The translations under genes and the position numbers were made by a program. From Methylococcus mesophilus (GTDB taxonomy: Bacteria; Pseudomonadota; Gammaproteobacteria; Methylococcales; Methylococcaceae), in the NCBI RefSeq assembly GCF_026247885.1, contig NZ_CP110921.1, positions 1,054,001-1,118,000 of the forward strand: a stretch of DNA of 64,000 nt. The letters run 5' to 3'. Numbering within the stretch: position 1 is the stretch's first letter; each line of letters begins with the position of its first letter. A model generated the notes under the pieces. That model made no database searches, was not told the origin of the DNA, and worked only from the letters and a program-made list of their open reading frames with translations. Positions 5,184-62,558 of the stretch are shown here, piece after piece.

Positions 5184-5221
5184 ACAGAAAACCCCTGGCA
5201 GACGCCAGCCTGCCAGGGGTT
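5184..5221 (-). terminator. Rho-independent terminator behind ftsH
   Basis: A perfect 12-base-pair stem (AACCCCTGGCAG / CTGCCAGGGGTT) with an 8-base loop lies 25 bases past the ftsH stop. On the minus strand it runs into TTTTCTGTTGT. It would separate ftsH from glmM transcription. Confidence 0.8.
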
Positions 5222-5245
5222 CGAAGGCCTGTGCGGCCCGAATGT

Positions 5246-7162
5246 TTAGTGCTGCTCCGCCGGCTTGCCGAAGGAACCCGACACCGACTCATCGCCTCCC
5301 TTTGAAGCGGACTCGCCGCTGCCGGGAGGAGTGGTGTCCTCCCAGCTCTGGGGTGCCCGCGGCGGCTTCCCTTCCATGATGTCGGCGATCTGCAGACGGT
5401 CAATGGTTTCGTATTTGATCAGCGCTTCGGCCATGAGATGCATCTTGTCCATGTTTTCCCGAAGGATGCGCTCGGAGCGTTCGTAGTTCCGGTCGATGAT
5501 CGAGCGGATTTCCTCGTCGATCAGATGCGCCGTTTCTTCCGAAACGCTCTTGTGCTTGGTGACCGAACGGCCGAGGAAGACTTCGCCCTCCTCTTCGCTG
5601 TAGGCCAACGGCCCCAGCCGCTCAGACAGTCCCCACCGCGTCACCATGTTCCGCGCCAAGCTGGTCGCGCGCTCGATGTCGTTCTGAGCACCGGTGGTGA
5701 CGCGCTCACGTCCGAACACGATCTCCTCGGCCAGCCGCCCGCCGAACAGGCTGGAAATCTGGCTCTCCAGTTTCTGCTTGCTGGCGCTGTAGGTGTCGCG
5801 CTCCGGCAGGAACATCGTAATGCCGAGGGCGCGGCCACGCGGCATAATGCTGACCTTGTAGACCGGATCATGCTCCGGCACCGACAGGCCGACGATGGCG
5901 TGGCCGGCTTCATGGTAGGCCGTGAGCTTCTTCTCCTCGTCGCTCATGACCATCGACTTGCGCTCGACGCCCATGAGGATCTTGTCCTTGGCCTTCTCGA
6001 AGTCCTCCATCTCCACGACCCGCTTGTTCTTGCGGGCCGCGAACAGGGCCGCCTCGTTGACCAGGTTGGCGAGATCGGCGCCGGAGAAACCGGGCGTACC
6101 GCGCGCCAGGTACTTGGCCTCGACGTCGTCGGCCAACGGCACCCGCTTCATGTGGACCTTGAGGATCTGCTCGCGCCCGCGGACGTCGGGCAAACCTACC
6201 ACCACCTGACGGTCGAACCGGCCCGGCCGCAGCAGCGCGGGGTCGAGCACGTCGGGACGGTTGGTCGCGGCGATCACGATGATGCCCTCGGTGCCTTCGA
6301 ATCCGTCCATTTCGACCAGCAACTGGTTCAGAGTCTGCTCGCGCTCGTCATGACCGCCGCCGAGCCCGGCACCGCGGTGGCGGCCGACCGCATCGATTTC
6401 GTCGATGAAGATGATGCAGGGCGCATGCTTCTTCGCCTGTTCGAACATGTCGCGCACGCGCGAGGCGCCCACGCCGACGAACATTTCCACGAAATCCGAA
6501 CCCGAGATCGAGAAGAACGGCACCCTGGCTTCGCCGGCGATGGCGCGGGCCAGCAGGGTCTTGCCGGTACCCGGAGGGCCGACCATGAGCGCGCCGCGCG
6601 GAATCTTGCCGCCCAACTTCTGGAACTTGCTGGGATCCTTGAGGAAATCGACCATTTCGGAGACGTCCTCCTTGGCCTCGTCGGCACCGGCGACATCGGC
6701 GAAGGTCACCTTGACCTGGTCTTCCTCGATCAAACGCGCCTTGCTCTTGCCGAAGGACATCGCTCCCCGGCCGCCGGCACCTCCCTGCATCTGGCGCATG
6801 AAGAATATCCACACGGCCACCAGCAGCAGCATCGGGAACCAGGAGATGAATATCTGCATCAAGAGCGACTGCGACTCCGGCGGCTGAGCCTTGATCTCTA
6901 CATGGTTCTTGAGCAGATCATCGACCAGGTGCGGGTCTTCCGGGTTGTAGGTCGAGAATTTCTCGCCCGTTCCCAGCATGCCGCGCACGTTCTGTCCGTC
7001 GATGGTCACCGATTTGACCTGCCCTTCATTCACGGCCGCAATGAACTGCGAATAGGACATGCTGGAATCGACCGATTTACGGGACCCGAAATTGTTGAAG
7101 ACGGACATCAGCACGACGGCGATGACCACCCAAAGAAGGATGTTCTTTAACATATCGTTCAC
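5246..7162 (-). CDS. ftsH: ATP-dependent zinc metalloprotease FtsH
   Basis: Inner-membrane AAA+ protease that degrades misassembled membrane proteins and regulatory proteins such as sigma-32 and LpxC in relatives. The 638 residues show two N-terminal membrane segments (about 5-22 and 100-124) flanking a periplasmic domain, Walker A GPPGTGKT at 195-202, the pore and second-region-of-homology AAA signatures, and the zinc motif HEAGH near 417. The start chosen is a GTG with GGAG nine bases upstream; an ATG three codons later is possible. The C-terminal tail is rich in Ser, Gly and Pro. rlmE lies upstream on the same strand, as in the conserved rlmE-ftsH pair, but with a 194-base gap. Confidence 0.97.
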
Positions 7163-7356
7163 GACTCGAATCTCCGTAGTCGGATTGGGATGGGATGGAG
7201 AGCGGCTTTTATTATTTATGTCAGACCGATGACGACAATATTATCCACACATGCTGGCGACCGCCACGAAATTCCCCGTGACACAACGAAATCATCGACG
7301 CAACACGTCATAAATATGACACATGGGTGGCCAAAATCGTTCCCGAACCCGCCCCA

Positions 7357-47042: not shown

Positions 47043-48335
47043 TCAAGTTCTGACCTGGCCGTCGCCGAGGACGATGAACTTCTGGGTCGTTAGCCCTTCC
47101 AGCCCGACCGGCCCGCGCGCATGGAGCTTATCGGTGCTGATGCCAATCTCCGCCCCCAGGCCGTACTCGAAACCGTCGGCGAAACGCGTCGAGGCGTTCA
47201 CCATGACCGAAGCCGAATCGACCTCGCGCAAGAAGCGGCGGGCGCGGCCGTAGTCCTCCGTGACGATGGCGTCGGTGTGGCCGGAGCCGTGACGGTGGAT
47301 GTGCTCGATCGCCTCGTCCAGGCCGGCGACCACGCGGACCGCCAGGATCGGCGCCAGGTATTCCGTGTCCCAGTCCGCCTCGGTCGCCGGAATGCAGCCC
47401 GGCACGATGCGGCAGGTTTCGGGGCAGCCCCGCAGTTCGACACCCTTGTCCCGGTAAAGCGCGGCCAGCTCCGGCAGGATCGCCGATGCGACGCCCGCGG
47501 CGACCAGCAGGGTTTCCATGGCGTTGCAGACCCCGTAGCGCTGGGTCTTGGCGTTGATCGCGATATTGCGGGCTTTGGCAAGGTCCGCACCGTCGTCGAT
47601 GTAGACGTGGCAGATGCCGTCCAAATGCTTGATGACCGGAATCCGCGATTCGGCAACGATGCGCTCGATCAGCGAACGCCCGCCGCGCGGCACGATGATG
47701 TCGACATATTTGTCCGCCCCCAGCAGCGCGCCGACCGCCGCCCGGTCGGTGGTCTCGACGAGTTGGACCGCATCGGCCGGCAGGCCGCCGGCTTCCAGCC
47801 CCTGGCGGATGCAGGCCGCGATGGCCTTGTTGGAGTGGATCGCCTCGGAGCCGCCGCGCAGGATGCAGGCGTTGCCGGACTTCAGGCACAGCCCCGCGGC
47901 GTCGGCAGTCACGTTGGGGCGGGATTCGTAGATGATGCCGATGACGCCCAGCGGCACCCGCATCCGTCCGACCTGGATGCCGGATGGCCGGTAGGTCAAA
48001 CCGCTGATTTCGCCGACCGGATCGGGCAGCGCGGCGATCTCCCGGAGGCCCGCGGCCATGGCGGCCACGCGTTTGGCATCGACACCCAGCCGCTCGAGCT
48101 GGGCCCGGTCCAGCCCCTTGGCCGCCCCCGCATCGAGGTCCTTGCGGTTCTCCTCGATCAGCCTGCCCGCCGAATTCTCGAGCGCATCGGCGATCGCCAG
48201 CAGCGCCCGGTTCTTCGCCGCCGTCTCGGCCCGCCCCAGCACCCGGCCGACTTCACGGGCGCGCCGGGCCAGACCGTCCACATACGCCGCCACGGCCACC
48301 GGTTCGGCCGGACGCGGTGCGCTCGCCGCCGTCAT
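47043..48335 (-). CDS. proA: Gamma-glutamyl phosphate reductase
   Basis: NADPH-dependent reduction of gamma-glutamyl phosphate to the semialdehyde in proline synthesis. The 430 residues carry [20 protein letters not shown] near 135-154, the catalytic Cys region [11 protein letters not shown] near 250, and the C-terminal [20 protein letters not shown]. No gamma-glutamyl kinase gene is adjacent. Its ATG overlaps the TAA of the upstream lipoprotein gene by one base. Confidence 0.97.
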
Positions 48336-48733
48336 TATTCCTTCGGCCCGCTGCGTTCGATCGCCTGGCCCATGCAGGTCATGATGTAGTCGGTCATGCG
48401 CAGCGCCGCCTGGTTCGCGGCCTTGACCGATCCGAACAGGTCCTTGTACTCCTCTGCGACTTTCTCGAAATCGCCCGAGCCCCTCACCGAATAGAATTTG
48501 GCGTAAGCCGTCAGATACTGCTTGCGCCTCGGGTCCCCCGGAAAGCCGGGCAGATCGTTCGTCAGATCGTTGACCACGCAGTCCGCGATTTCACCCGGAT
48601 CGAGCTTGTAGTCCTTGAGATCGCTGTCGTCCTGGAGCTTGGCCAGCAATGCTTCGCGCAGATCGCCCTGTTCCTTGGCCGCGCAGGCAGTCAGCAGCGC
48701 GAGCAATAGAACCAATGAGAATTTCCCCTTCAT
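48335..48733 (-). CDS. Putative lipoprotein of unknown function
   Basis: A 132-residue protein with a short signal peptide and a lipobox-like LLTAC (Cys17). The mature part is charged and helical ([20 protein letters not shown]), with two further Cys (in IADCVVND and IMTCMGQ). No family recognised. The start is placed at [10 protein letters not shown] by the signal peptide; a strong ribosome-binding site is not seen. It is coupled to proA by a TAATG-type one-base overlap and diverges from the NRPS gene. Confidence 0.75.
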
Positions 48734-48987
48734 GGAATCAACCGTTTGATGATAATAATGCCGAGTCGGCCGGTCGCCGTCATCGGTCTGGATTGTACTC
48801 GCAACTCGGATATACGAGGCGTCAAGATAGAAATGATACAGCGAATCCAACCCTTTTGCGGCATGGATCGGCACCGGCGCTCGCCGCCCCCGACGAGCAT
48901 CCTATAAATGTCCAATGGCTTACACGTCTTGAGGCTATTCTGGGTCAGAGCCACGGCACTGCGGTAAGAACGTATAAGGTGCAGAAG

Positions 48988-51900
48988 ATGACGGATTGCT
49001 ACGCGCTTTCGCCGATGCAGGGAAACATGCTCTCGGCGACGCTGTTCGATCAGCGGGAAGGTACCTACATCCAGCAATTGGTCTTGCGAACCAGCGAAAA
49101 TCTCGACGAAGCCGCTTACCGGGAGGCCTGGACCCGCCTGGTCGCCAGGCATGACATCCTGCGGACGGCGTTCGTCTGGCGAAACCTGGAGGCGCCGCTG
49201 CAACGGGTCGAGCCCGCGGTGACGATGCCCTGGGCCGACTTCGACTGGCGCGGTCTGGCGCGGGCGGAACAGGAGAGCCGGTTCGACGCTTTCCTCGCCG
49301 AGGACAGGCTGCACGGCTTCGACATGGCCGAGGCGCCTCTGCACCGCCTGAGTTTGATTCGCATCGCCGGGGACGAACACTGGGCGGTCTGGACCTACCA
49401 CCACGCGCTGCTGGATGGACGGGCGCGGCTCATCATCATGGAAGAGCTGTTCCTGATCTACCAGGCACTGCGGGACGACCACGAGCCGGAGCTGCCGCCG
49501 GCGACGCCGTACCGCGGCTACATCGACTGGCTGGACTCCGTCGACTTCGCGGCGAGTGAAGACTACTGGCGTGGTCTGCTGGCGGATTCCGAAGAACCCA
49601 ACCGCGTCCTGAGCGCCCTGCCCGAGCCGCGGCCCTTGTCGCCCGCCCACACCGGCGGACTGGTTCAAGCCTGGGCGCCTCCGGCCCTTTATGAGGCGCT
49701 CCAGGAACTCGCGAAGAAGCAGGACGTCACGCTCAACACCCTGGTCCAGGCCGCCTGGGCCCTGCTGATTGCACGCCACAGCGGGCTCGACGATGTGGTG
49801 TTCGGCGCCACGCGTTCCTGCCGTAAATCCGTGCCGGCGGGCGAGGCCATCGTCGGGCCGATCATCAACACCACGCCGGTGCGCCTGAAGGCAGACCCCG
49901 CCAAGTCCGTCGCCGAATTCATCCGCGAGCTTCGGCGCCAGCACCTGAGCGTGCGCGACCACGAGCACACGCCGACGGCCCGTATCCACGCCTGGAGCGG
50001 CCTGCCGGCCGGGATGCCGTTGTTCACCACCATCGTGGTCTTCGAGAACTACCACGTGGTGAAGTCCCGGGGCGGCGACTGGGACAAGCGCCGCTTCGAA
50101 CTGAAGGAACAGACCGACCACCTCATCCTGGCGGGCTACCTCGCCGACGGCCTGCTGCTCAAGATCGAATTCGACCGCCGCCTGTTCGAGGACGACACCG
50201 TCGAGCGCATGCTGCAACAACTGCTGACGATCCTCGAGAGCCTGGCGGCCTGCGCCGACGGCAAACTCGCAGACCTGCGCAGCCTCCCGGACGGCGAACT
50301 GCACCGGCTGCTGGTGGAGTGGAACGACACCGGCACCCGCTACCCCGAAGTCACCCTGGGCGAACTCTTCTCCGCGCAGGCGCGCCGCACGCCGGACGCC
50401 ATCGCGGTCCAAAGCGGAAACCAGCGCCTGAGCTACGGCGAACTGGAACGGCGCTCGAACCGGTTGGCGGCCCTTTTGCTGAGCAAAGGCGCGGGTCCCG
50501 GTTCCGTGGTCGCCCTGCTGCTCGACCGCAGTTGCGAACTGGCGGTCGGCCTCCTCGGCGTACTGAAGGCCGGTGGCGCCTACCTGCCGCTGGATCCCGC
50601 CTATCCCGAAGACCGGCTCGCCTACATGCTCGAGGACTCGGGCGCGCGGATCGTGCTGACCCGGACCGCCCTGGCCGATGCCCTTCGCCATCCCGGCGTC
50701 GAACTGCTGCGGCTGGACACCGGCTGGGAATCCGACCCCGCCGGCTCGGACGAAGCTCCCCCGTGCTGCGCGAAGCCGGACCACCTCGCCTATCTGATGT
50801 ATACCTCCGGTTCGACGGGCCTGCCGAAGGGCGTGATGGTCCCGCACCGCGGCGTCGTCAACCTGTGTGGGGCGATGCAGCGCCGCTATGGACTCGGCCC
50901 GCACGACCGCGTCCTGCAGTACGCCTCCATCAGTTTTGACATCTGCGTGGAGGAGATTTACCCGACCTGGCATGCCGGCGGCACGGTCGTGTTCCGCGAC
51001 GAGACCCAGGGCCATTCGGTCCACGAGTTCCTGGACTGGGCCGCCCACGAAGGCATCACCGTGTTCAACCTTCCTACCGCGTTCTGGAACGAACTGGTAC
51101 GGGGACTCGGCACGAGCGGCGCAGGTCTGCCCGACAGCCTGCGATTGACCGTGGTCGGCGGGGAAAAGGCCTCCCGCGCCATGCTGGAGGCCTGGAACCG
51201 CCTGCCCGGCGCAGCCCGCGTTGCCTGGCTCAACACCTACGGGCCGACCGAAACGACGGTCACCGCGACCGTCTACCAGCCGCCGCAGTTCTCCCCTGCC
51301 GGCCCGCCGGCCACCGATCCGCCGATCGGCCGGCCCATCGACAACGTCCGCCTGTACGTGCTCGACCGCCATCTGCAACCGGCGCCTATCGGGGTGCCGG
51401 GCGAGCTGTACATCGGCGGCGCCGGCGTGGCGAAAGGCTATCGGCGGCGTCCCGAACTCACCGCCGCGGCCTTTGTCCCCGATCCGTTCGCCGGCGCCCC
51501 CGAGGCCCGGATGTACCGCACAGGCGACCTAGTGCGTTACGGCGCCGACGGCCAGTTGTCTTTCGTGGGGCGCAACGACAACCAGGTCAAGATCAGCGGC
51601 TTCCGGGTCGAACCGGGCGCAATCGAAGCGGCGATCGAGCGTTATGACGGCGTGGCCCAGGCCGCGGTGAAGGCCGTCGAAGCGCCGGGCGGGAAATATC
51701 TCGCCGCCTACGTCGTTCCGGCGCCGGGCGGCCGGTTCGACGCCAAGGACCTGGAAACCTTCCTGCGGGACACCCTGCCGGAGCACAAAATCCCCCGGGT
51801 GTTCCTAGCCTTGGCGGAATTCCCGCTCACACCGGGCGGCAAGCTGGACCGCAAGGCCCTGCCCGATCCTGCAGCGCCCTCCCCCTCAGCCGGCGGCGCC

Positions 51901-52935
51901 GAAGTTCCCCGCAGCGGCAGCGAGAGGAAACTCGCCGCGATCTTCGAGGAGCTTTTCCCGGCACGCTCGATCGGCCTCCGGGACAACTTCTTCGCCATCG
52001 GCGGCGATTCGCTGCGGGCCTTCCAACTGCTCACGCGCATCGAACTCGCCTGCGGCCAACGGCTTTCGTTCGCCGCCCTGGCGAGGGCCGCCACGGTCGA
52101 ACAACTGGCAGCACTGATCGACGGCGGGGGCGATGCGGAGACTCCGAACACCCACATCGTTCCCTTGAGCCTGGAGGCCGCCCAGGGGCCTGCGCTTTTC
52201 CTCGTCCACGGCGTGGGCGGCAGCGTGCACTGGTATCACGCCCTGGCCGAATCGCTGAAAGCCGACTTCAACCTCTACGGCATCCAGTCGCCCGGCATGG
52301 ACGAAGGCGAGGACGCCCTGATCGGCGCCGACGTCGAAAGTCTGGCCCGCCTCTACATCTCGGAAATCAAGGCCGTCCAGGCGCAGGGGCCGTATTGGAT
52401 CGGCGGCCACTCCATGGGGGGCATCATCGCCTTCGAGATGGCCCGTCAGTTCCACGCACTGGGAGACGAGGTCGCGCTGGTGGCGAATTTCGACAACTGG
52501 AACCGCGCGGCGGACGCCCCCGGTTTCGGCACCAAGCTGCTGCGTCTCGCCGTCCATTTCGTGAAACTCGGCACCGCGGACAAGCTGCGGTTCCTGCGCG
52601 ATAAGATGCAGTGGGCGAAACAGTGCCTCAGCGCGCGCTTGGCACCCGGCCGGGCCGACGCCCGTCCGCTGGAGGAAATGAAAGCCGCTAACGTCAAGGC
52701 CGCCTACCGCTACCTGCCCGGCTTCTATCCCGGCACCCTCACGCTGTTCCGGGCCCGCCAGCAGGCCGCCACCGCCCTGGACGATCCGCTGCTCGGCTGG
52801 AACGGACTGGCGGAGGAAATCGACGTCGTGGAAGTACCCGGCAATCATTACACCCTGCTCGGCGAACCGCACGTCCGCACGCTGGCCGACGAACTGAGGC
52901 GCCGGGCGCGGCCCCTGGGGAGCAGCGGGCGCTGA
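48988..52935 (+). CDS. Single-module nonribosomal peptide synthetase (C-A-T-TE)
   Basis: From the ATG chosen it is 1315 residues. Domains in order: condensation (1-440, ALSPMQGNML and catalytic HHALLDG at 138-144), adenylation (about 450-950, with YTSGSTGLPKG near 604, NTYGPTETT near 748, YRTGDLVRY near 845 and GKLDRKALP near 951), carrier (970-1045, IGGDSLRAF with the phosphopantetheine Ser near 1007) and thioesterase (1060-1310, HGVGG and GHSMGG near 1139). All core residues look intact. Stachelhaus positions read by eye give D-I-E-N-V-G-T-V-T-K; Glu at the third position hints at a basic or amino-group side chain. Two alpha/beta-hydrolase genes follow. The product is unknown. Confidence 0.93.
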   Translation: MTDCYALSPMQGNMLSATLFDQREGTYIQQLVLRTSENLDEAAYREAWTRLVARHDILRTAFVWRNLEAPLQRVEPAVTMPWADFDWRGLARAEQESRFDAFLAEDRLHGFDMAEAPLHRLSLIRIAGDEHWAVWTYHHALLDGRARLIIMEELFLIYQALRDDHEPELPPATPYRGYIDWLDSVDFAASEDYWRGLLADSEEPNRVLSALPEPRPLSPAHTGGLVQAWAPPALYEALQELAKKQDVTLNTLVQAAWALLIARHSGLDDVVFGATRSCRKSVPAGEAIVGPIINTTPVRLKADPAKSVAEFIRELRRQHLSVRDHEHTPTARIHAWSGLPAGMPLFTTIVVFENYHVVKSRGGDWDKRRFELKEQTDHLILAGYLADGLLLKIEFDRRLFEDDTVERMLQQLLTILESLAACADGKLADLRSLPDGELHRLLVEWNDTGTRYPEVTLGELFSAQARRTPDAIAVQSGNQRLSYGELERRSNRLAALLLSKGAGPGSVVALLLDRSCELAVGLLGVLKAGGAYLPLDPAYPEDRLAYMLEDSGARIVLTRTALADALRHPGVELLRLDTGWESDPAGSDEAPPCCAKPDHLAYLMYTSGSTGLPKGVMVPHRGVVNLCGAMQRRYGLGPHDRVLQYASISFDICVEEIYPTWHAGGTVVFRDETQGHSVHEFLDWAAHEGITVFNLPTAFWNELVRGLGTSGAGLPDSLRLTVVGGEKASRAMLEAWNRLPGAARVAWLNTYGPTETTVTATVYQPPQFSPAGPPATDPPIGRPIDNVRLYVLDRHLQPAPIGVPGELYIGGAGVAKGYRRRPELTAAAFVPDPFAGAPEARMYRTGDLVRYGADGQLSFVGRNDNQVKISGFRVEPGAIEAAIERYDGVAQAAVKAVEAPGGKYLAAYVVPAPGGRFDAKDLETFLRDTLPEHKIPRVFLALAEFPLTPGGKLDRKALPDPAAPSPSAGGAEVPRSGSERKLAAIFEELFPARSIGLRDNFFAIGGDSLRAFQLLTRIELACGQRLSFAALARAATVEQLAALIDGGGDAETPNTHIVPLSLEAAQGPALFLVHGVGGSVHWYHALAESLKADFNLYGIQSPGMDEGEDALIGADVESLARLYISEIKAVQAQGPYWIGGHSMGGIIAFEMARQFHALGDEVALVANFDNWNRAADAPGFGTKLLRLAVHFVKLGTADKLRFLRDKMQWAKQCLSARLAPGRADARPLEEMKAANVKAAYRYLPGFYPGTLTLFRARQQAATALDDPLLGWNGLAEEIDVVEVPGNHYTLLGEPHVRTLADELRRRARPLGSSGR

Positions 52936-52962
52936 CCCCGCATCCCCACCTCGCCGGAAATC

Positions 52963-53916
52963 ATGCCGTTCAGCCATTCCTACCCGTTCGATCCGACCTA
53001 CGGGTTTTCCCTCGACCAGCTGCTCCGGGTGGAACCGCCCGACCCGCCGGAAGACTTCGCCGCCTTCTGGTCGGCGAGGTATGACAATGCGAGAACCGTG
53101 GCTCCCCGGCCGGAACTCCGCCGCTGCGGCTGGAGCCATCCGCGCTTTCAGACATTCGACCTCACCTACCGCTCGACCGGCTCGATCGACATCGGCGGCT
53201 GGGCGCTGATCCCGGCGCACGGCCGGATCAACCGGGGCTTCGTGGTCGGCCACGGCTACGGTGGCCGCGGCGGTCCCGATCTCGATCTCCCGTTCGACGA
53301 CGCCGCCGTCCTGTTTCCCTGCTTCCGCGGCCTCTCCCGCAGCCGCTGTTCCGGCATTCCCGACGCTCCGGACCGGCATGTGCTGTGCGGAATCGAGGAT
53401 CGCGACCGCTACGTCCTCGGCGGCTGCGTGGACGACCTCTGGCTGGCCGTCAGTGCCCTGCTCGAACTGTTTCCCGAGGTCGAAGGCCGCGTGGGCTACC
53501 TCGGCATCAGCTTCGGCGGCGGCATCGGCGCCCTGAGCCTGCCGTGGGAGCCGCGCATCCGCAGGGCCCATCTCAACGTGCCGACCTTCGGCCACCAGCC
53601 GCTGCGGCTGACGCTGCCGACGGTCGGCAGCGGGGAATCGGTCCGGCGCTATCAAGCCACCCACGGTAACGTGACGGCAACCTTGGCCTATTACGATGCC
53701 GCCATCGCCGCGCGCTTCACCGGCATCCCGGTGCACGTCGCCGCCGCCCTGTTCGATCCGGCGGTCGCGCCGCCCGGCCAGTTCGCCGTCTACAACGCGC
53801 TCGCCGGGCCGAAAGAGCTGTTTGTGCTGGACGCGGGACATTTCGACTATCCGCGCAAGCCCGAACAGGACCGATCGTTGTCCGCCGCCATTGCGGCATT
53901 TTTCGAGCCGCTATGA
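52963..53916 (+). CDS. Acetyl-xylan-esterase-like (CE7/AXE1) alpha/beta-hydrolase
   Basis: The 317 residues match the CE7-type esterase layout: an N-terminal DPPEDFAAFWSARYDNA, RGFVVGHGYGGRGG near 91-104 (oxyanion region), nucleophile elbow GISFGGG with Ser183, Asp in ALFDPAVAPPGQ near 265, and His in DAGHFDYPR near 292. No signal peptide, so it acts in the cytoplasm. It starts 27 bases after the NRPS and overlaps the next gene by ATGA. Given the context it may process the NRPS product rather than a polysaccharide; this is inference. Confidence 0.85.
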   Translation: MPFSHSYPFDPTYGFSLDQLLRVEPPDPPEDFAAFWSARYDNARTVAPRPELRRCGWSHPRFQTFDLTYRSTGSIDIGGWALIPAHGRINRGFVVGHGYGGRGGPDLDLPFDDAAVLFPCFRGLSRSRCSGIPDAPDRHVLCGIEDRDRYVLGGCVDDLWLAVSALLELFPEVEGRVGYLGISFGGGIGALSLPWEPRIRRAHLNVPTFGHQPLRLTLPTVGSGESVRRYQATHGNVTATLAYYDAAIAARFTGIPVHVAAALFDPAVAPPGQFAVYNALAGPKELFVLDAGHFDYPRKPEQDRSLSAAIAAFFEPL

Positions 53917-54641
53917 ACCGGGAATATCACCGCTGGTACACCGAACGCCTGGGCCGCAACATGGAACTGCTCGTGATCGGCCATGCCGGCGCAAAAGTGC
54001 TGGTCTTCCCGACCCGTGACGGACGCTTCCACGAGTACGAAGACCTCCGGCTGGTGGAAAGCCTGCGGCACAAGATCGAGGCCGGCCACCTGCAGCTGTT
54101 CTGCCTGGACAGCATCGACCACGAAGCCCTCTATTGCTTCTGGCGCCATCCGGCCGAGCGCATCCGGCGCCACGTCCAGTTCGAGGAATACATCCTGAAC
54201 GAAGTGTTCCCGCTGATGGCCGCCAGGAACCCGCATCCCTGCACCATCGCGCACGGCTGCAGCCTGGGCGCGTACCACGCCGTCAACATCGCCTTCCGCC
54301 ACCCCCACCTGTTCCGCAAGGTGGCCGCCTTCTCCGGCCGCTACGATCTGACGCTTGGCGTGGAACACTTCCGCGACCTGTTCGACGGCTATTACGACGA
54401 CACCATCTACTACCACACCCCCTCGCATTTTCTCCCCAACCTGGAATGCCCTTGGCGGCTCGAATCGCTGCGGCGCATGGACATCGTGCTCGTGGTGGGC
54501 TGCGACGACCCCTTTCTGGGCAACAACCGCGACCTGAGCCGGATTCTGTGGTCCAAGGGCATCCCCCATGCCCTCCATACCTGGGACGGGCGCGCTCACC
54601 AGGGTCATGCCTGGCGGAAGATGGCGCCGCTGTACGTCTAA
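53913..54641 (+). CDS. Putative esterase (esterase D/antigen 85-type fold)
   Basis: A 242-residue alpha/beta-hydrolase. The nucleophile elbow is AHGCSLGAYHA with Ser117; a likely acidic residue lies in VVGCDDPFLGNN near 197, and the His in DGRAHQGHAWRK near 230. Similar proteins are annotated only as esterases. Translational coupling (ATGA) to the AXE1-like gene and proximity to the NRPS suggest a three-gene unit. Confidence 0.82.
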   Translation: MNREYHRWYTERLGRNMELLVIGHAGAKVLVFPTRDGRFHEYEDLRLVESLRHKIEAGHLQLFCLDSIDHEALYCFWRHPAERIRRHVQFEEYILNEVFPLMAARNPHPCTIAHGCSLGAYHAVNIAFRHPHLFRKVAAFSGRYDLTLGVEHFRDLFDGYYDDTIYYHTPSHFLPNLECPWRLESLRRMDIVLVVGCDDPFLGNNRDLSRILWSKGIPHALHTWDGRAHQGHAWRKMAPLYV

Positions 54642-55241
54642 GCAGGGAATGTTTCCAACTGGTGTCTGCCCTGTTCGATTCGGGCATTGAGCAGGCCGGC
54701 TGATGTGGCATCTGTTCTCGTAAAGGGACCGCCCCCCGGCCGGTAGCTCAACACGCCGAAGACAGCTCGCGACCCGTTGCCGCCAGTCAATCGGAAGGGT
54801 CGAATGGGTGGTTTTCGGTCACTAAGGTATGGGTTATCCAGAATAGCGGACGCCGAATCTGCTGGTGATGCTGGTGGGCAGATGCGGTCTAGCTAGGTAT
54901 TCCAGATTGGACGCATCACGATACTACGAAGAGGGCATCAACCTATGTCAATGGTCGCTGGCCAGCGGCTATTGAGCGAACCGGCGGCTCCGGTGGGCCG
55001 GATTCACCGGATGAAGGATGGGGGCGGAAAGACTCAGTGGTTGTCCGGTGGACGGTTCGGGTATCATTATTTCATAGTAAAGCTCGATTGCATGATGGAC
55101 CCCTTACCGCTGGAAGTCAGATAGACAGAAGGATAGAGCAGGCAACTCAAAGCATGTTGCCGGGCGGCATGATGAGAATGACCGGAAGCTATACGGAAAC
55201 AATTTAATCAATTGTTATGCATAGCATCGAAATCACCCTGG
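54642..55241. other. 600-base region without recognisable gene
   Basis: Stops are frequent in all frames and no coupling, signal peptide or known motif is seen. GC is lower than to the left, and the stretch marks the start of the compositionally different right end. It could be decayed mobile or repeat DNA, but no terminal repeats or transposase fragments were recognised. Confidence 0.6.
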
Positions 55242-55784
55242 ATGTATTCAAAAAACCCGATGGCACCTGGAAACAGTGCAAATAGATTCGATGCCCGCCT
55301 TGGACTCGGCCTCGCAGTACTGGTCACCAGTAACTTGCTGTTCATTGTTCCTTTCCTCATTCAGGAACATTGGCCGGGATGGCTTAAAGCCGTGGCCGGC
55401 TCCATGCTTCTCGCGCCGGATATTGGAACCCTGGCGGCGGTCGCAATCATGGGCAAGGAGAACTTCGAGCGCATAGTGTCCACCGCGAAACGCTGGCTTG
55501 CCAGCAACAAGCCCGCTGGTAACGTCGGGCCAGTCCGTCATTTCATCGGGCTGGTCCTATTTCTATCGCCACTGGTCGTAACTTATGTCCAAGGCTATGC
55601 CCCTGAATGGCTTCCAGACCGTTCGCCTTGGAGGCTCTACACGAACATTGCCAGCGACCTGGTATTCATTACTAGCCTCTTCGTACTGGGCGGCGATTTT
55701 TGGGACAAACTCCGAGCCTTATTCGTACGCGAAGCCCGTGCGGTGTTTCCGGAAACGGCGCAGGTGGAAAGTCAACCGCTATAA
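55242..55784 (+). CDS. Small multi-spanning membrane protein, unknown
   Basis: About 180 residues from an ATG at MYSKNP; starts at a later ATG (MAPGNSANRF) or an upstream TTG are possible and none has a good ribosome-binding site. Four hydrophobic segments are visible (about 23-40, 50-65, 98-115, 131-150), the first two resembling the short transporter-suffix type of membrane domain (LGLGLAVLVTSNLLFIVPFL). No known transporter body is present. It stands alone between empty spacers, and its function is unknown. Confidence 0.55.
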   Translation: MYSKNPMAPGNSANRFDARLGLGLAVLVTSNLLFIVPFLIQEHWPGWLKAVAGSMLLAPDIGTLAAVAIMGKENFERIVSTAKRWLASNKPAGNVGPVRHFIGLVLFLSPLVVTYVQGYAPEWLPDRSPWRLYTNIASDLVFITSLFVLGGDFWDKLRALFVREARAVFPETAQVESQPL

Positions 55785-55883
55785 TAGGCCAGCGCGGGGC
55801 CGGCCGGACATCAAACCCCGCCGAATCAGCGCGGCGCCGTTCCGCCGCAAGTGATCCGGCGTTGTCTTAATTCATCGAGGCAA

Positions 55884-55905
55884 ACCCCCAGGCATTGCCG
55901 GGGGT
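55884..55905. other. Hairpin upstream of the acyltransferase gene
   Basis: ACCCCC and GGGGGT form a 6-base-pair stem, extended past a bulged A by GGC/GCC around ATT. It is followed by AT-rich DNA without a clear T-run. A TTATTGC/GCAATAA pair lies a little downstream. It may be a weak terminator for the preceding gene or a leader structure. Confidence 0.35.
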
Positions 55906-55949
55906 AATCTAACTTATTATTATTGCGCCAGCGGCAATAAGTAATTCCC

Positions 55950-58019
55950 ATGACAACTCCCCTTCCCACCCATCGCCCTTCAACCCATCTAGCCTACCAG
56001 AAATACCGCCCTGATATCGACGGCTTACGCGCAGTTGCGGTGTTTGCTGTCGTTGGTTTTCACGCCTTTCCCGATTTCCTCAAAGGTGGATTCATCGGTG
56101 TTGATATATTTTTTGTCATCTCAGGTTTTCTCATCTCTAATATAATCCTCAGCAGTCTCGAACAGGAGCGGTTCAGCTTTACCGAGTTCTATGGACGTCG
56201 TATCCGTCGCATATTTCCTGCATTAAGTACGGTGTTGATGACTTCTTTTGCATTTGGCTGGTTTGTACTGCTGGCCGACGAGTATAAGCAACTCGGAAAG
56301 CACGTGGCTGGCTCGGCAGGATTCATTTCCAATTTTATTCTATGGCAGGAGAGCGGCTATTTCGATAACGCAGGGACGACGAAGCCTTTACTTCGCTTAT
56401 GGAGTCTTGGAGTCGAAGAACAATTCTACCTCGCCTGGCCGTTCCTACTCTGGCTGGCATGGAAATATCGTTTCAACTTCCTGGCAACAACTATTGGGAT
56501 TATAGTCGTTTCTTTTCTGGTGAACATGACGACATATCGCAGCGATGCCGTAGGAGATTTCTATTCGCCACAAACACGGTTTTGGGAGCTCCTCACGGGC
56601 TCCATCCTAGCTTATTCCATTCAGCATAAGGGTTGGCTTTCGGGTAACTCCAGGCAACTTCTAGGCATCTTGGCAGGCAAAGTTAATTCCGTATGGCACG
56701 CTGATCAAAATACCATCCAAACCAGGACTCTCCAATCAGTACTGGGCATACTTATCATTGGCACGGGGATATTTGCTATATCCAAAGAAGATAACTTCCC
56801 AGGGTTTTTGGCTACGGTGCCGGTCGCCGGTGCCGCATCGATTATCGCGGCCGGGCCTCATGCATGGGTAAACCGCGCCATACTATCAAAGAGGTTGATC
56901 GTCTGGTTCGGACTGATCAGCTACCCGCTATATTTATGGCATTGGCCGCTCTTATCGTTCGCGAACCTCGTTGAAGGTGAAACCCCCAGCCACTCCGTTC
57001 GCATCGCCGCAGTGTTATGCTCAATAGTACTCGCTTGGGCGACATACCAAGCAATTGAGAAGCCGATTCGCTCTGGGAAACATGGTAAGCCGGCAGCTAT
57101 TTCCTTGTTTATACTGATGACGCTTATCGGGTCTCTTGGATACGGCGCGTACGAAAAAAACGGGCTGCCTGATAGATTCTTTGCCGAACAACACAATAAG
57201 ATTTCTGAAGCTATCGATGACTGGGAGTGGCCAAACGGCCTGAAAAAAATTGAAGCCGATGGCTTGACTCTTTATGGAAACTCCACCCAGCCCGCCCAAA
57301 TGATTATCGTTGGAGATTCGCACGTCATGCAATTCAGTCCCAAAGTAGCGCATGCCAGCGAACAGGGACAGATTCCGCCTGTATTATTCATGGCTGACAT
57401 AGGCTGTCCCGTAGTTCCTTTTGTTTTTGACGATGCAATACACCAGCATTGCAGGAGTTTCGTAGAGAAATTTCTGGAGCTGCTAAAAAAATCGCCGGAT
57501 ATCAAGAAGATCGTCATTGGCGGGTGCTGGAATTGCTACTTCATCGACCAAACCCGCACAAAAAGGCTTAAAAACGATCCGCAGGATTTCTACTATCAGA
57601 AGGACGGTGACAAGGTGTTATTCCGAGGCCAGGACGGCAGGAGGCTGGCTCTGGCGTCCCTTAAGGAGCTGCTCACCGAACTTTCGAGAGGCTACTCTGT
57701 TTATTTGCTGCTGGACAACCCAAATGGACACTTCTTTAATCCGCGTAAAATGCTTAAGAACAGGCTCGACATTGGACGGAATTCGGAGGGAAATGTCATG
57801 ACCCTTCCCCAGGAGCAGATCGACCTGAACAATGAGTTACGCATGATTGCTCTCGAATCGGGGGCTCAGGTTATCGATCAAGTCTCAAGCCTATGCCCGG
57901 ACTATAGATGTTCACGGCTCGACAAGGATGGCCGCCCCATCTACAAGGATGAAAACCACTTGCGCTCCAGGTTTGTTATCGAAAACAGAAGCCCTATAGA
58001 TGCCGCTTTATCGCCATAG
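55950..58019 (+). CDS. OafA/YrhL-type acyltransferase with SGNH domain
   Basis: The 689 residues start with the acyltransferase-3 signature YRPDIDGLRAVAVFAVVGFH (about 18-37, catalytic His-type motif) and about ten membrane segments up to residue 395, including RIRRIFPAL and LWSLGVEEQFYLAWP. The C-terminal part (about 440-680) is a soluble SGNH esterase-like domain with VGDSHVMQF near 452 and DENHLRS near 670. Such proteins O-acetylate cell-surface glycans. GC is clearly lower than in the left part, suggesting acquisition. No surface-polysaccharide genes adjoin it here. Confidence 0.92.
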   Translation: MTTPLPTHRPSTHLAYQKYRPDIDGLRAVAVFAVVGFHAFPDFLKGGFIGVDIFFVISGFLISNIILSSLEQERFSFTEFYGRRIRRIFPALSTVLMTSFAFGWFVLLADEYKQLGKHVAGSAGFISNFILWQESGYFDNAGTTKPLLRLWSLGVEEQFYLAWPFLLWLAWKYRFNFLATTIGIIVVSFLVNMTTYRSDAVGDFYSPQTRFWELLTGSILAYSIQHKGWLSGNSRQLLGILAGKVNSVWHADQNTIQTRTLQSVLGILIIGTGIFAISKEDNFPGFLATVPVAGAASIIAAGPHAWVNRAILSKRLIVWFGLISYPLYLWHWPLLSFANLVEGETPSHSVRIAAVLCSIVLAWATYQAIEKPIRSGKHGKPAAISLFILMTLIGSLGYGAYEKNGLPDRFFAEQHNKISEAIDDWEWPNGLKKIEADGLTLYGNSTQPAQMIIVGDSHVMQFSPKVAHASEQGQIPPVLFMADIGCPVVPFVFDDAIHQHCRSFVEKFLELLKKSPDIKKIVIGGCWNCYFIDQTRTKRLKNDPQDFYYQKDGDKVLFRGQDGRRLALASLKELLTELSRGYSVYLLLDNPNGHFFNPRKMLKNRLDIGRNSEGNVMTLPQEQIDLNNELRMIALESGAQVIDQVSSLCPDYRCSRLDKDGRPIYKDENHLRSRFVIENRSPIDAALSP

Positions 58020-58229
58020 CTGAAGCTCGGAGTTCGAGTTGAGTATTCTGCCTAACCCTTCTATGCGCCAGGATATACGGAATCTCGAGAAAGAGGACTC
58101 CCTATTCTAGGCAAGCGGATTATCCGGGCCGCGCCCACCACAGGGCTGTTCAATGCTGAAAAATTGATGTAAGACACTTAATGCTTAGTATGCACCAACG
58201 CCCCAGATCTCGGAAAAAGGTTTGCATTG

Positions 58230-61091: not shown

Positions 61092-62558
61092 TCAAAACAT
61101 GCCGCCGTTAACGGAAAACAGCGCCAGAATACTGGCAAAAAACCCTAACAAAATGGCTGGCAACCAGCGAAAATGAAACGAGAAGGTATAACCTTCGCCT
61201 TCTCCCAGGCTTCCCTTCATTAATCCCAACACATGCAACCCGGGGGCCGAGCCTATCGCCAGTAGACTGCCACCGACGCCCAGTGTGAGAGTGAGTAATA
61301 ACCATTGCCCAATGGGGAATGGCGGGCGCATATTGAGAACCGCGAACATCAACGTGCCATTGTCAATGGAGGAAGAAGCCAAACCAATAATGATGTTGGC
61401 AATTGTGGCACTAATTTCCGTGAACAGAAAATGCGCCATCGCATCTAGATACCCTAAGAAATTGAGGGCACCGACTATCATCATCGCGCCATAAAAGAAC
61501 AGCAAGGTATCCCAATCCACGCCGGCAATGCACTTGAAAACATCAAATCCTTTTTGTGAATCCAAATAGATTTGCCTTTCATTAGCCTCATAGTCGGTCA
61601 GGAAATGGTGCAATTTCTCTGACTTGGTTAAGTAATAGGCGAAGAATTGCAGTATGGCTAAACCAAACATCATGCCTGCTATCGCCGGCATGTCGAGAAA
61701 GACATTGGATAGGATAGTGATACTAAAAGTCAGGACGAATATTAAAATAATTCGCTTGCTGCCGCGCTTCAGCATGGGCGTTTCTTTCGGGAAGCTCGGT
61801 TTACCCTTCGTCACAGAGAAATGCATGATGGCGGCCGGTACCAGGAAATTGACGATGCAGGGGATCGTCAGGTCGAAGAAATCCGTGAAGTGCAGCATGT
61901 TCTGCTGCCAGACGAAGAAGGTGGAAATGCCCCCCAAAGGGCTCATGGTACCGCCCGCGTTAGCTGCAATCACCGCATTCAGGCCTGCAAGACCGACAAA
62001 CCGGTGCTGACCTTTTCCTATCTCTAAGACGATGTAGCCCATCAGCAGGCCGACCGTCAGACTGCTGATTACTGTAGACAGCACAAAGGCCAAAATGCCG
62101 GTAATCCAAAATAACTGCCGATAACTGTATTGCCGATTCGCCAGACCGATGCGCAATGCGTCGAAGATTCCGCGTTCTGTCATGGAGTTCAAGAACGTCA
62201 TCGACACGGTAATAAACAAAAATAGCTCCGCATAGGCCATCAAATTGGATTGAAAGGCGGGAGTAACATTTTTTGCGGTTCCCGTTTCTACGGAGTAATA
62301 CACAAATATGATAAACCACATGAGCGCCGATCCCAGCACCATTGGCTTTGCCTTGCTCATTTGATGCAAGTCCTCCGTCATAGCAATGGCATAGGCGAGT
62401 ACCGTTATTACAATCGCGGCATACCCGACGAAATGATGCTTCAAGTCTATCTGCATTGCCGCCGTTGCTTCTTGTGCGAAACCCAAGCCAGGCATAAGCA
62501 AGCCAAAGATAAATATCAGTAGATTACAATAATAAAATCGTTGCGTTGATGTTTTCAT
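61092..62558 (-). CDS. nhaD: NhaD-type sodium:proton antiporter
   Basis: The 488 residues have a signal-like first segment then about twelve membrane segments. Family features include HHFVGYAAIVITVLAYAIAM near 41-60, AGLNAVIAANAGGTMSPLGG near 192-211 and SSSIDNGTLMFAVLNM near 393-408. NhaD exports Na+ or Li+ at alkaline pH in halophilic and marine bacteria. It is in AT-richer DNA and upstream of the broken apbE. The pairing with a KdpDE-like system and a nearby CPA2-type antiporter suggests a cation-homeostasis cluster. Confidence 0.93.
   Translation of the reverse strand: MKTSTQRFYYCNLLIFIFGLLMPGLGFAQEATAAMQIDLKHHFVGYAAIVITVLAYAIAMTEDLHQMSKAKPMVLGSALMWFIIFVYYSVETGTAKNVTPAFQSNLMAYAELFLFITVSMTFLNSMTERGIFDALRIGLANRQYSYRQLFWITGILAFVLSTVISSLTVGLLMGYIVLEIGKGQHRFVGLAGLNAVIAANAGGTMSPLGGISTFFVWQQNMLHFTDFFDLTIPCIVNFLVPAAIMHFSVTKGKPSFPKETPMLKRGSKRIILIFVLTFSITILSNVFLDMPAIAGMMFGLAILQFFAYYLTKSEKLHHFLTDYEANERQIYLDSQKGFDVFKCIAGVDWDTLLFFYGAMMIVGALNFLGYLDAMAHFLFTEISATIANIIIGLASSSIDNGTLMFAVLNMRPPFPIGQWLLLTLTLGVGGSLLAIGSAPGLHVLGLMKGSLGEGEGYTFSFHFRWLPAILLGFFASILALFSVNGGMF

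Follow-up and report, generated by a model that had tools for sequence, protein, structure and literature searches.

Introduction

A putative copper-scavenging system based on a nonribosomal peptide synthetase (NRPS) was described in 2004 for Methylococcus capsulatus Bath, in which MCA2107 forms the start module and MCA1883 carries a condensation (C) domain and a terminal thioesterase (TE) (Ward et al., PMC517821). In later work, the transcription of MCA1883 was reported to be lower with 0.1 uM Ce, and Ce-chelating activity was present in spent medium only under lanthanide deficiency; MCA1883 was named as a candidate lanthanide-chelator synthetase, the chelator was termed enterobactin-like, a staphyloferrin-B-like siderophore route of Methylobacterium was mentioned, and mutants were reported to be in progress (Xie et al. 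2023, PMC10728633). In the available portions of the literature on MCA1883 and on lanthanide chelation by M. capsulatus, no product structure for this chelator was seen. The present work concerns the most likely ortholog of MCA1883 in Methylococcus mesophilus, which is encoded at positions 48988-52935 of a stretch of 64,000 nucleotides (positions 1,054,001 to 1,118,000 of contig NZ_CP110921.1; the whole of this stretch is referred to here as the window) and is followed by the genes for two hydrolases. Like MCA1883, this protein has a C domain and a terminal TE, but it comes from another species, and the available portions of the two papers mention neither the C-domain subtype nor the hydrolases (PMC517821, PMC10728633). 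A preliminary description of the locus, made from its sequence, considered that it could make a product not yet described; the presumed ortholog of its NRPS has been in print since 2004 and 2023.

Based on the results presented here, we propose, as a reading with about an even chance of being correct, that this NRPS is an orphan termination-type module making a small, probably lanthanide, chelator, and that the two hydrolases constitute a separate unit.

Results

Domain organization and integrity of the synthetase

The NRPS is encoded by one open reading frame (ORF) of 1315 amino acids, in which the C domain is followed by adenylation (A), thiolation (T) and TE domains. Its features, in window coordinates, are as follows:

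48988..52935, + strand: presumed MCA1883 ortholog, a single-module NRPS of the order C(DCL type)-A-T-TE (Pfam domains, C-domain tree, motifs, dN/dS)
48994..50310, + strand: condensation domain, predicted DCL type, HHALLDG intact (PF00668, residues 3-441; PDB ranking; tree)
50368..51843, + strand: adenylation domain and its C-terminal subdomain (PF00501, residues 461-818; PF13193, residues 879-952; TIGR01733)
51931..52119, + strand: thiolation (carrier) domain, GGDS (PF00550, residues 982-1044; motif in 6/6 orthologs)
52192..52890, + strand: thioesterase domain, GHSMG and His motif (PF00975, residues 1069-1301; both kept in 6/6 orthologs)

All five Pfam matches (viz. Condensation, 273.9 bits; AMP-binding, 313.3; AMP-binding_C, 41.4; PP-binding, 40.2; Thioesterase, 97.9) exceed their curated cut-offs, the amino-acid adenylation model TIGR01733 scores 457.8 bits against a cut-off of 317.4, and the core motifs HHALLDG, the A-domain signatures, GGDS and GHSMG were all found, confirming the complete single module of the preliminary description. 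The HHxxxDG, A-domain, GGDS, GHSMG and TE His motifs are also conserved across the six Methylococcus orthologs, and the module is probably active. Further, the ratio of nonsynonymous to synonymous substitution rates (dN/dS) for the whole gene is 0.19-0.30 (15 pairs from the six orthologs) and 0.12-0.49 for individual domains, which indicates that the gene is under purifying selection and is not decaying. A ratio of about 0.2 argues that the module is in use. The specificity code of the A domain, which was read by eye with GrsA numbering, is D-I-E-N/D-T/L-V-T/S/C-V-T-K in the six orthologs, and its acidic third position weakly suggests a substrate whose side chain is basic.

Assignment of the C domain to the DCL type

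A division of C domains into DCL, LCL and starter classes is described in PMC1894796. A tree of C domains, made with a quick method, was constructed from the NRPS regions of relatives and the six Methylococcus domains (104 rows), with the removal of stretches shorter than 380 residues and of one low-scoring row. The rows were labelled by position, viz. DCL after an epimerization (E) domain, LCL after a T domain, START after an acyl ligase, and N-terminal when first in the chain. One branch of this tree, with a support of 97 in the Shimodaira-Hasegawa-like approximate likelihood ratio test (SH-aLRT), holds all 18 DCL rows and all six Methylococcus rows on a side of 40 rows, which additionally contains 9 LCL-position and 7 N-terminal rows. 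The opposite side of 48 rows consists of 20 LCL, 22 N-terminal, 5 START and 1 other row, with zero DCL rows. An inner group of 34 rows (support 83) unites the 18 DCL and the Methylococcus rows with 4 LCL-position and 6 N-terminal rows, although within the DCL side the position of Methylococcus is weakly fixed, with a support of only 81-84. Grouping with starter C domains was not seen, as all five START rows lie on the opposite side of the tree. Two motif patterns, xMQ in C1 and HHxLLDG in C3, are confined to the DCL side, where both are present in all Methylococcus rows (6/6) and where 9/18 and 12/18 of the DCL rows, respectively, have them.

A similar result was obtained by comparison with the PDB, where the C domain matches McyB, PvdL, bacitracin synthase 3, surfactin synthetase and tyrocidine synthase 2 with 170-254 bits, the C domains of this group being ones that follow E domains. 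All remaining matches are at or below 106 bits, including the C domains of the CDA synthetase (35 bits) and EntF (26.8 bits). The tree, the motifs and the PDB ranking together identify the C domain as DCL in type, a type other than the starter, LCL and ester-forming ones named in the phylogenetic check of the preliminary description. A domain of the DCL type is the kind expected downstream of an epimerase.

The known proteins of similar organization can be compared on this basis. The surfactin termination module SrfA-C (2vsq) is of the same C-A-T-TE order, and its C domain, which receives a D-residue donor, is in the top PDB group; however, SrfA-C has upstream modules, whereas further C or E domains are absent from the M. 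mesophilus genome. EntF of E. coli (5ja1), whose order is likewise C-A-T-TE, matches the whole protein with 417.6 bits, but the C domain with only the 26.8 bits noted above, and ABBFA_003403 of Acinetobacter (4zxh), a stand-alone C-A-T-TE protein encoded in a multi-gene operon, matches with 428.6 bits as a whole, but with only 34.5 bits in the C domain. It is very improbable, therefore, that the protein is an EntF-like synthetase of a catecholate trilactone. Although the domain order is that of EntF, an EntF identity of 27% is in print and the chelator has been called enterobactin-like (PMC10728633), the C domain is far closer to the top PDB group than to EntF, and the genome differs from the EntF system in having no isochorismate synthase above its curated cut-off (two matches lie below it, at an E-value limit of 0.001) and no MbtH. 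Catecholate building blocks are accordingly not supported.

Search for a donor in the genome

The genome of M. mesophilus is a single contig of 4.34 Mb with an estimated completeness of 100%, and the PF00668 match within this NRPS is its only one; thus no upstream E domain that could serve as the source of a D-configured donor was found. TIGR01733 has six matches genome-wide, of which only the one in this NRPS lies above the curated cut-off (among the other adenylation matches, the analysis covered a scan of the protein at L127 and an inspection of L123 and L126 by eye). These results bear out the earlier statement that an NRPS beginning with a C domain must either be supplied with a donor from elsewhere or work iteratively. 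There are also five carrier (PP-binding) matches and two matches of the phosphopantetheinyl-transferase type in the genome, and zero matches to MbtH anywhere in it, where the preliminary description had noted its absence nearby. Likewise as described there, no methyltransferase or obvious exporter lies beside the NRPS among the neighbouring ORFs tested; of the transporter-type genes in this set, the closest encodes a CitMHS-type permease (61092-62558) and is about 6.5 kb distant.

Apart from the NRPS, adenylation and carrier matches coincide in a single ORF, viz. L133 5867-8311, which encodes a fatty-acyl-ligase-like protein with a carrier and a PF01553 acyltransferase domain and is perhaps what the 2004 paper took for the NRPS starter. 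In that paper (PMC517821), MCA2107 (A-T-acetyltransferase) was proposed as a starter, which would pass ornithine-like units to MCA1883, and the presence of an AMP-ligase-carrier-acyltransferase protein in the M. mesophilus genome is consistent with this proposal. However, the best model for the L133 protein is PRK06187 (fatty-acyl-CoA ligase), with 274 bits, itself below the cut-off of 476, while it reaches only 173 bits with the amino-acid adenylation model, below the cut-off of 317; its identity with MCA2107 is deduced from domain order, and the genome has zero matches to the Lys/Orn N-oxygenase family at an E-value limit of 0.001, which another family could escape. Due to these scores, the L133 protein is not supported as an amino-acid starter, nor are hydroxamate building blocks supported, given the missing N-oxygenase match. 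With the fatty-acyl-type scores of L133 and isochorismate synthase matches below cut-off, neither the starter of 2004 nor a catecholate finds support at the level of sequence. We therefore consider a two-protein assembly line to be quite unlikely, although the L133 protein could still supply a fatty acyl group.

The module may, on the other hand, act iteratively, with one basic amino acid being oligomerised on its own T and TE domains to give a charged oligomer that would bind metal. A TE is present, and the sole C domain and sole above-cut-off adenylation domain in the genome mean that no other aminoacyl carrier is visible. Against this stands the DCL type of the C domain, as the module's own aminoacyl donor would be L, and we regard self-condensation as a minor, though real, possibility.

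The synthetase is found only in Methylococcus among the genomes searched

The relatives examined comprised 61 genomes (that of M. mesophilus and 60 others), six of which, including its own, belong to Methylococcus. Each of these six carries exactly one match to the C domain, with 67-100% identity, and due to this single match per genome MCA1883 is most likely the ortholog. Among the other 55 relatives, 22 have some C-family match, the best of which is 40% identical. In a class-level search of 369 genomes, only four reach an E-value of 1e-80, viz. two Methylococcus and two others (39-40% identity), and a scan of the genome collection with the whole protein gave three loci, from M. capsulatus Texas, from the metagenome-assembled genome (MAG) STC_26 and from a distant actinomycete. 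The NRPS was thus found only in Methylococcus within the genomes searched. The new point emerging from these results is that an orphan termination module, by its sequence of the DCL type, is the sole NRPS seen in a genus.

The two hydrolases and their linkage to the synthetase

The two genes that follow the NRPS are as follows:

52963..53916, + strand: CE7/AXE1-like serine esterase, apparently the usual partner of the next gene and not of the NRPS (PF05448, 78.8 bits)
53913..54641, + strand: esterase-D/CE1-like serine hydrolase (PF00756, 37.3 bits)

Their Pfam families and spacing are as previously described, with a gap of exactly 27 bases between the NRPS and the AXE1-like gene and an exact ATGA overlap between the AXE1-like and esterase genes. 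In the AXE1-like protein, S183, D265 and H293, which by motif would be the catalytic triad, are invariant in 22/22 aligned sequences, and both the family match and the Ser-Asp-His residues place it in CE7; among solved structures, those nearest to it by sequence belong to cephalosporin C deacetylase and acetyl xylan esterases. In the esterase-like protein, S117 and H229 are invariant in 27/27 aligned sequences. Its predicted model has a predicted local distance difference test (pLDDT) score of 93.5, and the 50 matches listed in a fold search with this model have query template modelling (TM) scores of 0.62-0.76 at 13-19% identity, the closest folds among them being feruloyl esterases and S-formylglutathione hydrolases; the S-formylglutathione hydrolase equivalog TIGR02821 is, however, matched with only 25.6 bits against a cut-off of 281.7. 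The AXE1-like protein is thus like the CE7 deacetylase 1l7a by sequence match and the second hydrolase like 5vol and 7yvt (CE1/esterase D) by fold match.

The three genes occur together in 4/6 Methylococcus genomes (viz. M. mesophilus, L032, L033 and L034), whereas in the other two the NRPS is not accompanied by an intact adjacent pair. In M. capsulatus Texas, the NRPS is intact, but the similarity to AXE1 ends after 43 residues, and this remnant is followed by an island with restriction-modification-like genes (by eye); the genome G004, which is probably the same strain in view of identical match values, has no esterase match. In the MAG Methylococcus sp. STC_26, the setting upstream of the NRPS is unchanged and a different, convergent gene then follows, whereas the pair is found on a separate contig, where it follows a transposase-like end (by eye) and has other genes beside it. 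The assembly of STC_26 (G001) is fragmented and 87% complete, but its NRPS contig extends about 11 kb beyond the NRPS without the pair.

Outside the genus, the pair is seen in the reverse situation. Matches to the esterase-like protein are present in 26/61 genomes, of which 24 are strong and 2 weak, the strong ones being in 5/6 Methylococcus genomes and 19 others. The AXE1-like gene adjoins the esterase in 17 of these 19 loci (in one of the 17 it is cut by a contig end), the exceptions being G011, without AXE1 in the 2 kb examined, and G028, where the contig ends. This NRPS is absent from all 19 genomes; in L050, a different NRPS (25-37% identity) lies a few kb upstream. Among 398 genomes of the phylum, the esterase has matches in 36, seven of them strong including that of M. 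mesophilus, and AXE1 stands beside the esterase in 6/6 strong loci outside the order (the L112 copy has an in-frame stop), with no NRPS domain in the stretches around these six loci.

The alternative is that the three genes form one biosynthetic locus, the NRPS being the source of a small amide or ester that is trimmed by the hydrolases, in the manner of enterobactin-type esterases acting on EntF products. The 27-base gap, the ATGA overlap, the block kept in four genomes of the genus and the invariant Ser and His residues of the hydrolases favour such a make-and-trim locus, and the enterobactin esterase Fes does appear in the fold search with the second hydrolase, as number 50 of the 50 matches listed. 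However, the NRPS stands without an intact pair beside it in M. capsulatus Texas and STC_26, which is the outcome by which, according to the preliminary description, the scheme would be refuted; the pair occurs without this NRPS both outside the genus and outside the order; and the closest relatives of the hydrolases are largely carbohydrate esterases and S-formylglutathione hydrolases. The make-and-trim scheme is consequently unlikely, and the hydrolases are rejected as conserved partners of the NRPS. In terms of the proposed survey of co-travel, four of the six Methylococcus genomes keep the block and two do not, and the pair exists elsewhere without this NRPS. As part of the explanation that we favour, and with the same roughly even chance, the pair would represent a separate, more widespread two-gene esterase unit and not required partners of the NRPS. 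The pair and the NRPS may nevertheless be co-transcribed here.

Other features of the esterase pair and of the flanking regions

No described system built on a fixed AXE1-esterase pair is known to us, no literature search aimed at it having been made. Genes for dihydroxyacetone kinase are found close to the pair in two loci of rhizobial type (L111 4751-5743 and L113 6869-7861) and in STC_26 (L035 4106-5737); elsewhere other genes stand beside it, and no fixed functional neighbour was seen by eye. In view of the carbohydrate-esterase-type relatives and these kinase neighbours, the NRPS product seems a less likely substrate of the hydrolases than acylated sugars or related esters. The AXE1 gene is damaged in three loci, viz. 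L028 8345-8572 (fragment), L112 6406-7353 (in-frame stop) and L078 13973-14101 (truncation), and as two of these lie beside an intact esterase, AXE1 seems to be the member of the pair that is lost first.

No match to AXE1 was found in the stretches examined around five more distant esterase homologs (31-35% identity). Directly ahead of such distant homologs, an ATP-grasp gene takes the place of AXE1 (L030 8788-10753, L031 8828-10756 and L117 ~5207-7181), constituting a second two-gene arrangement; the esterase adjoins an ATP-grasp gene in L117, the one of the five homologs that was tested for this, and in two annotated plasmid loci. The esterase was seen on 14 plasmid records, and of the four plasmids inspected, that of Rhizobium carries the pair; on that of Thiodictyon the esterase is accompanied by a fragment of AXE1, and no match to AXE1 was found on the two distant ones.

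Downstream of the pair (window 54642-58100), the match to the three linked relatives stops within about 85 bases past the esterase stop, and the genes beyond it differ among the linked relatives, being transposase or restriction-modification-like in two (by eye); the three-gene block ends at a strain-variable junction. In M. mesophilus, the pair is followed by an acyltransferase-3 fused to an SGNH domain (window 55950-58019). Fusions of this kind are often tied to O-acetylation of surface sugars.

Upstream of the NRPS, a divergent small lipoprotein-like gene (by eye) without a Pfam match is located at window 48335-48733 and is conserved among the aligned Methylococcus genomes. It is separated from the NRPS by the following region:

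48735..48987, + strand: intergenic, probable promoter region of the NRPS, with conserved blocks (alignments of six and of five Methylococcus genomes)

Discussion

If the NRPS is an orphan module making a small chelator, its action may be envisaged as follows. A phosphopantetheinyl transferase would load the T domain. The amino acid activated by the A domain, perhaps one whose side chain is basic, would be coupled by the C domain to a donor not supplied by another NRPS; this would be either an acyl group delivered on a carrier of the fatty-acid type or the module's own aminoacyl-T in a second copy. The TE would then free a small amide or short oligomer, to be secreted as a metal, probably lanthanide, chelator, and, to judge from its presumed ortholog MCA1883, Ce supply would lower the transcription of the gene. 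The CE7-like and CE1/esterase-D-like pair would act apart from the NRPS, probably on acylated sugars or similar esters.

Several observations weigh against this interpretation. The enzyme activity, the donor and the product are putative, and the orthology to MCA1883 is presumed by elimination. A DCL domain fits a D-configured donor, and an acyl group and the module's own L-aminoacyl group are neither of them of this kind. No metal receptor and no obvious exporter are present among the tested neighbours. Further, no motif common to the NRPS promoter and the mxaF and xoxF promoters was found beyond what is seen with shuffles: the best 16-base matches are 13 for xoxF and 12 for mxaF, and shuffled sequences give means of 11.5 and 11.3, respectively, with a maximum of 13 for both. 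Lastly, as the three genes are adjacent in four of the six Methylococcus genomes, there may be a functional link within this genus.

A more specific form of the orphan-module proposal is that a termination module was severed from its assembly line and is now a self-standing, one-module lanthanophore pathway, unlike the Methylobacterium route. With its DCL-type C domain and without an NRPS partner in the genome, it would link one amino acid, which may be basic, with a donor of non-NRPS origin and release a lanthanide chelator. This form is tentative, and we hold it to be doubtful.

Setting the esterase pair apart stops the pursuit of a three-gene pathway on the basis of adjacency alone. The predicted DCL-type C domain, occurring without an E domain or an upstream module, provides a small testable case of a lone chain-terminating module. 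If this module makes the Ce-chelating activity, then a single biosynthetic gene would help to explain the supply of rare earths for XoxF in a model methanotroph.

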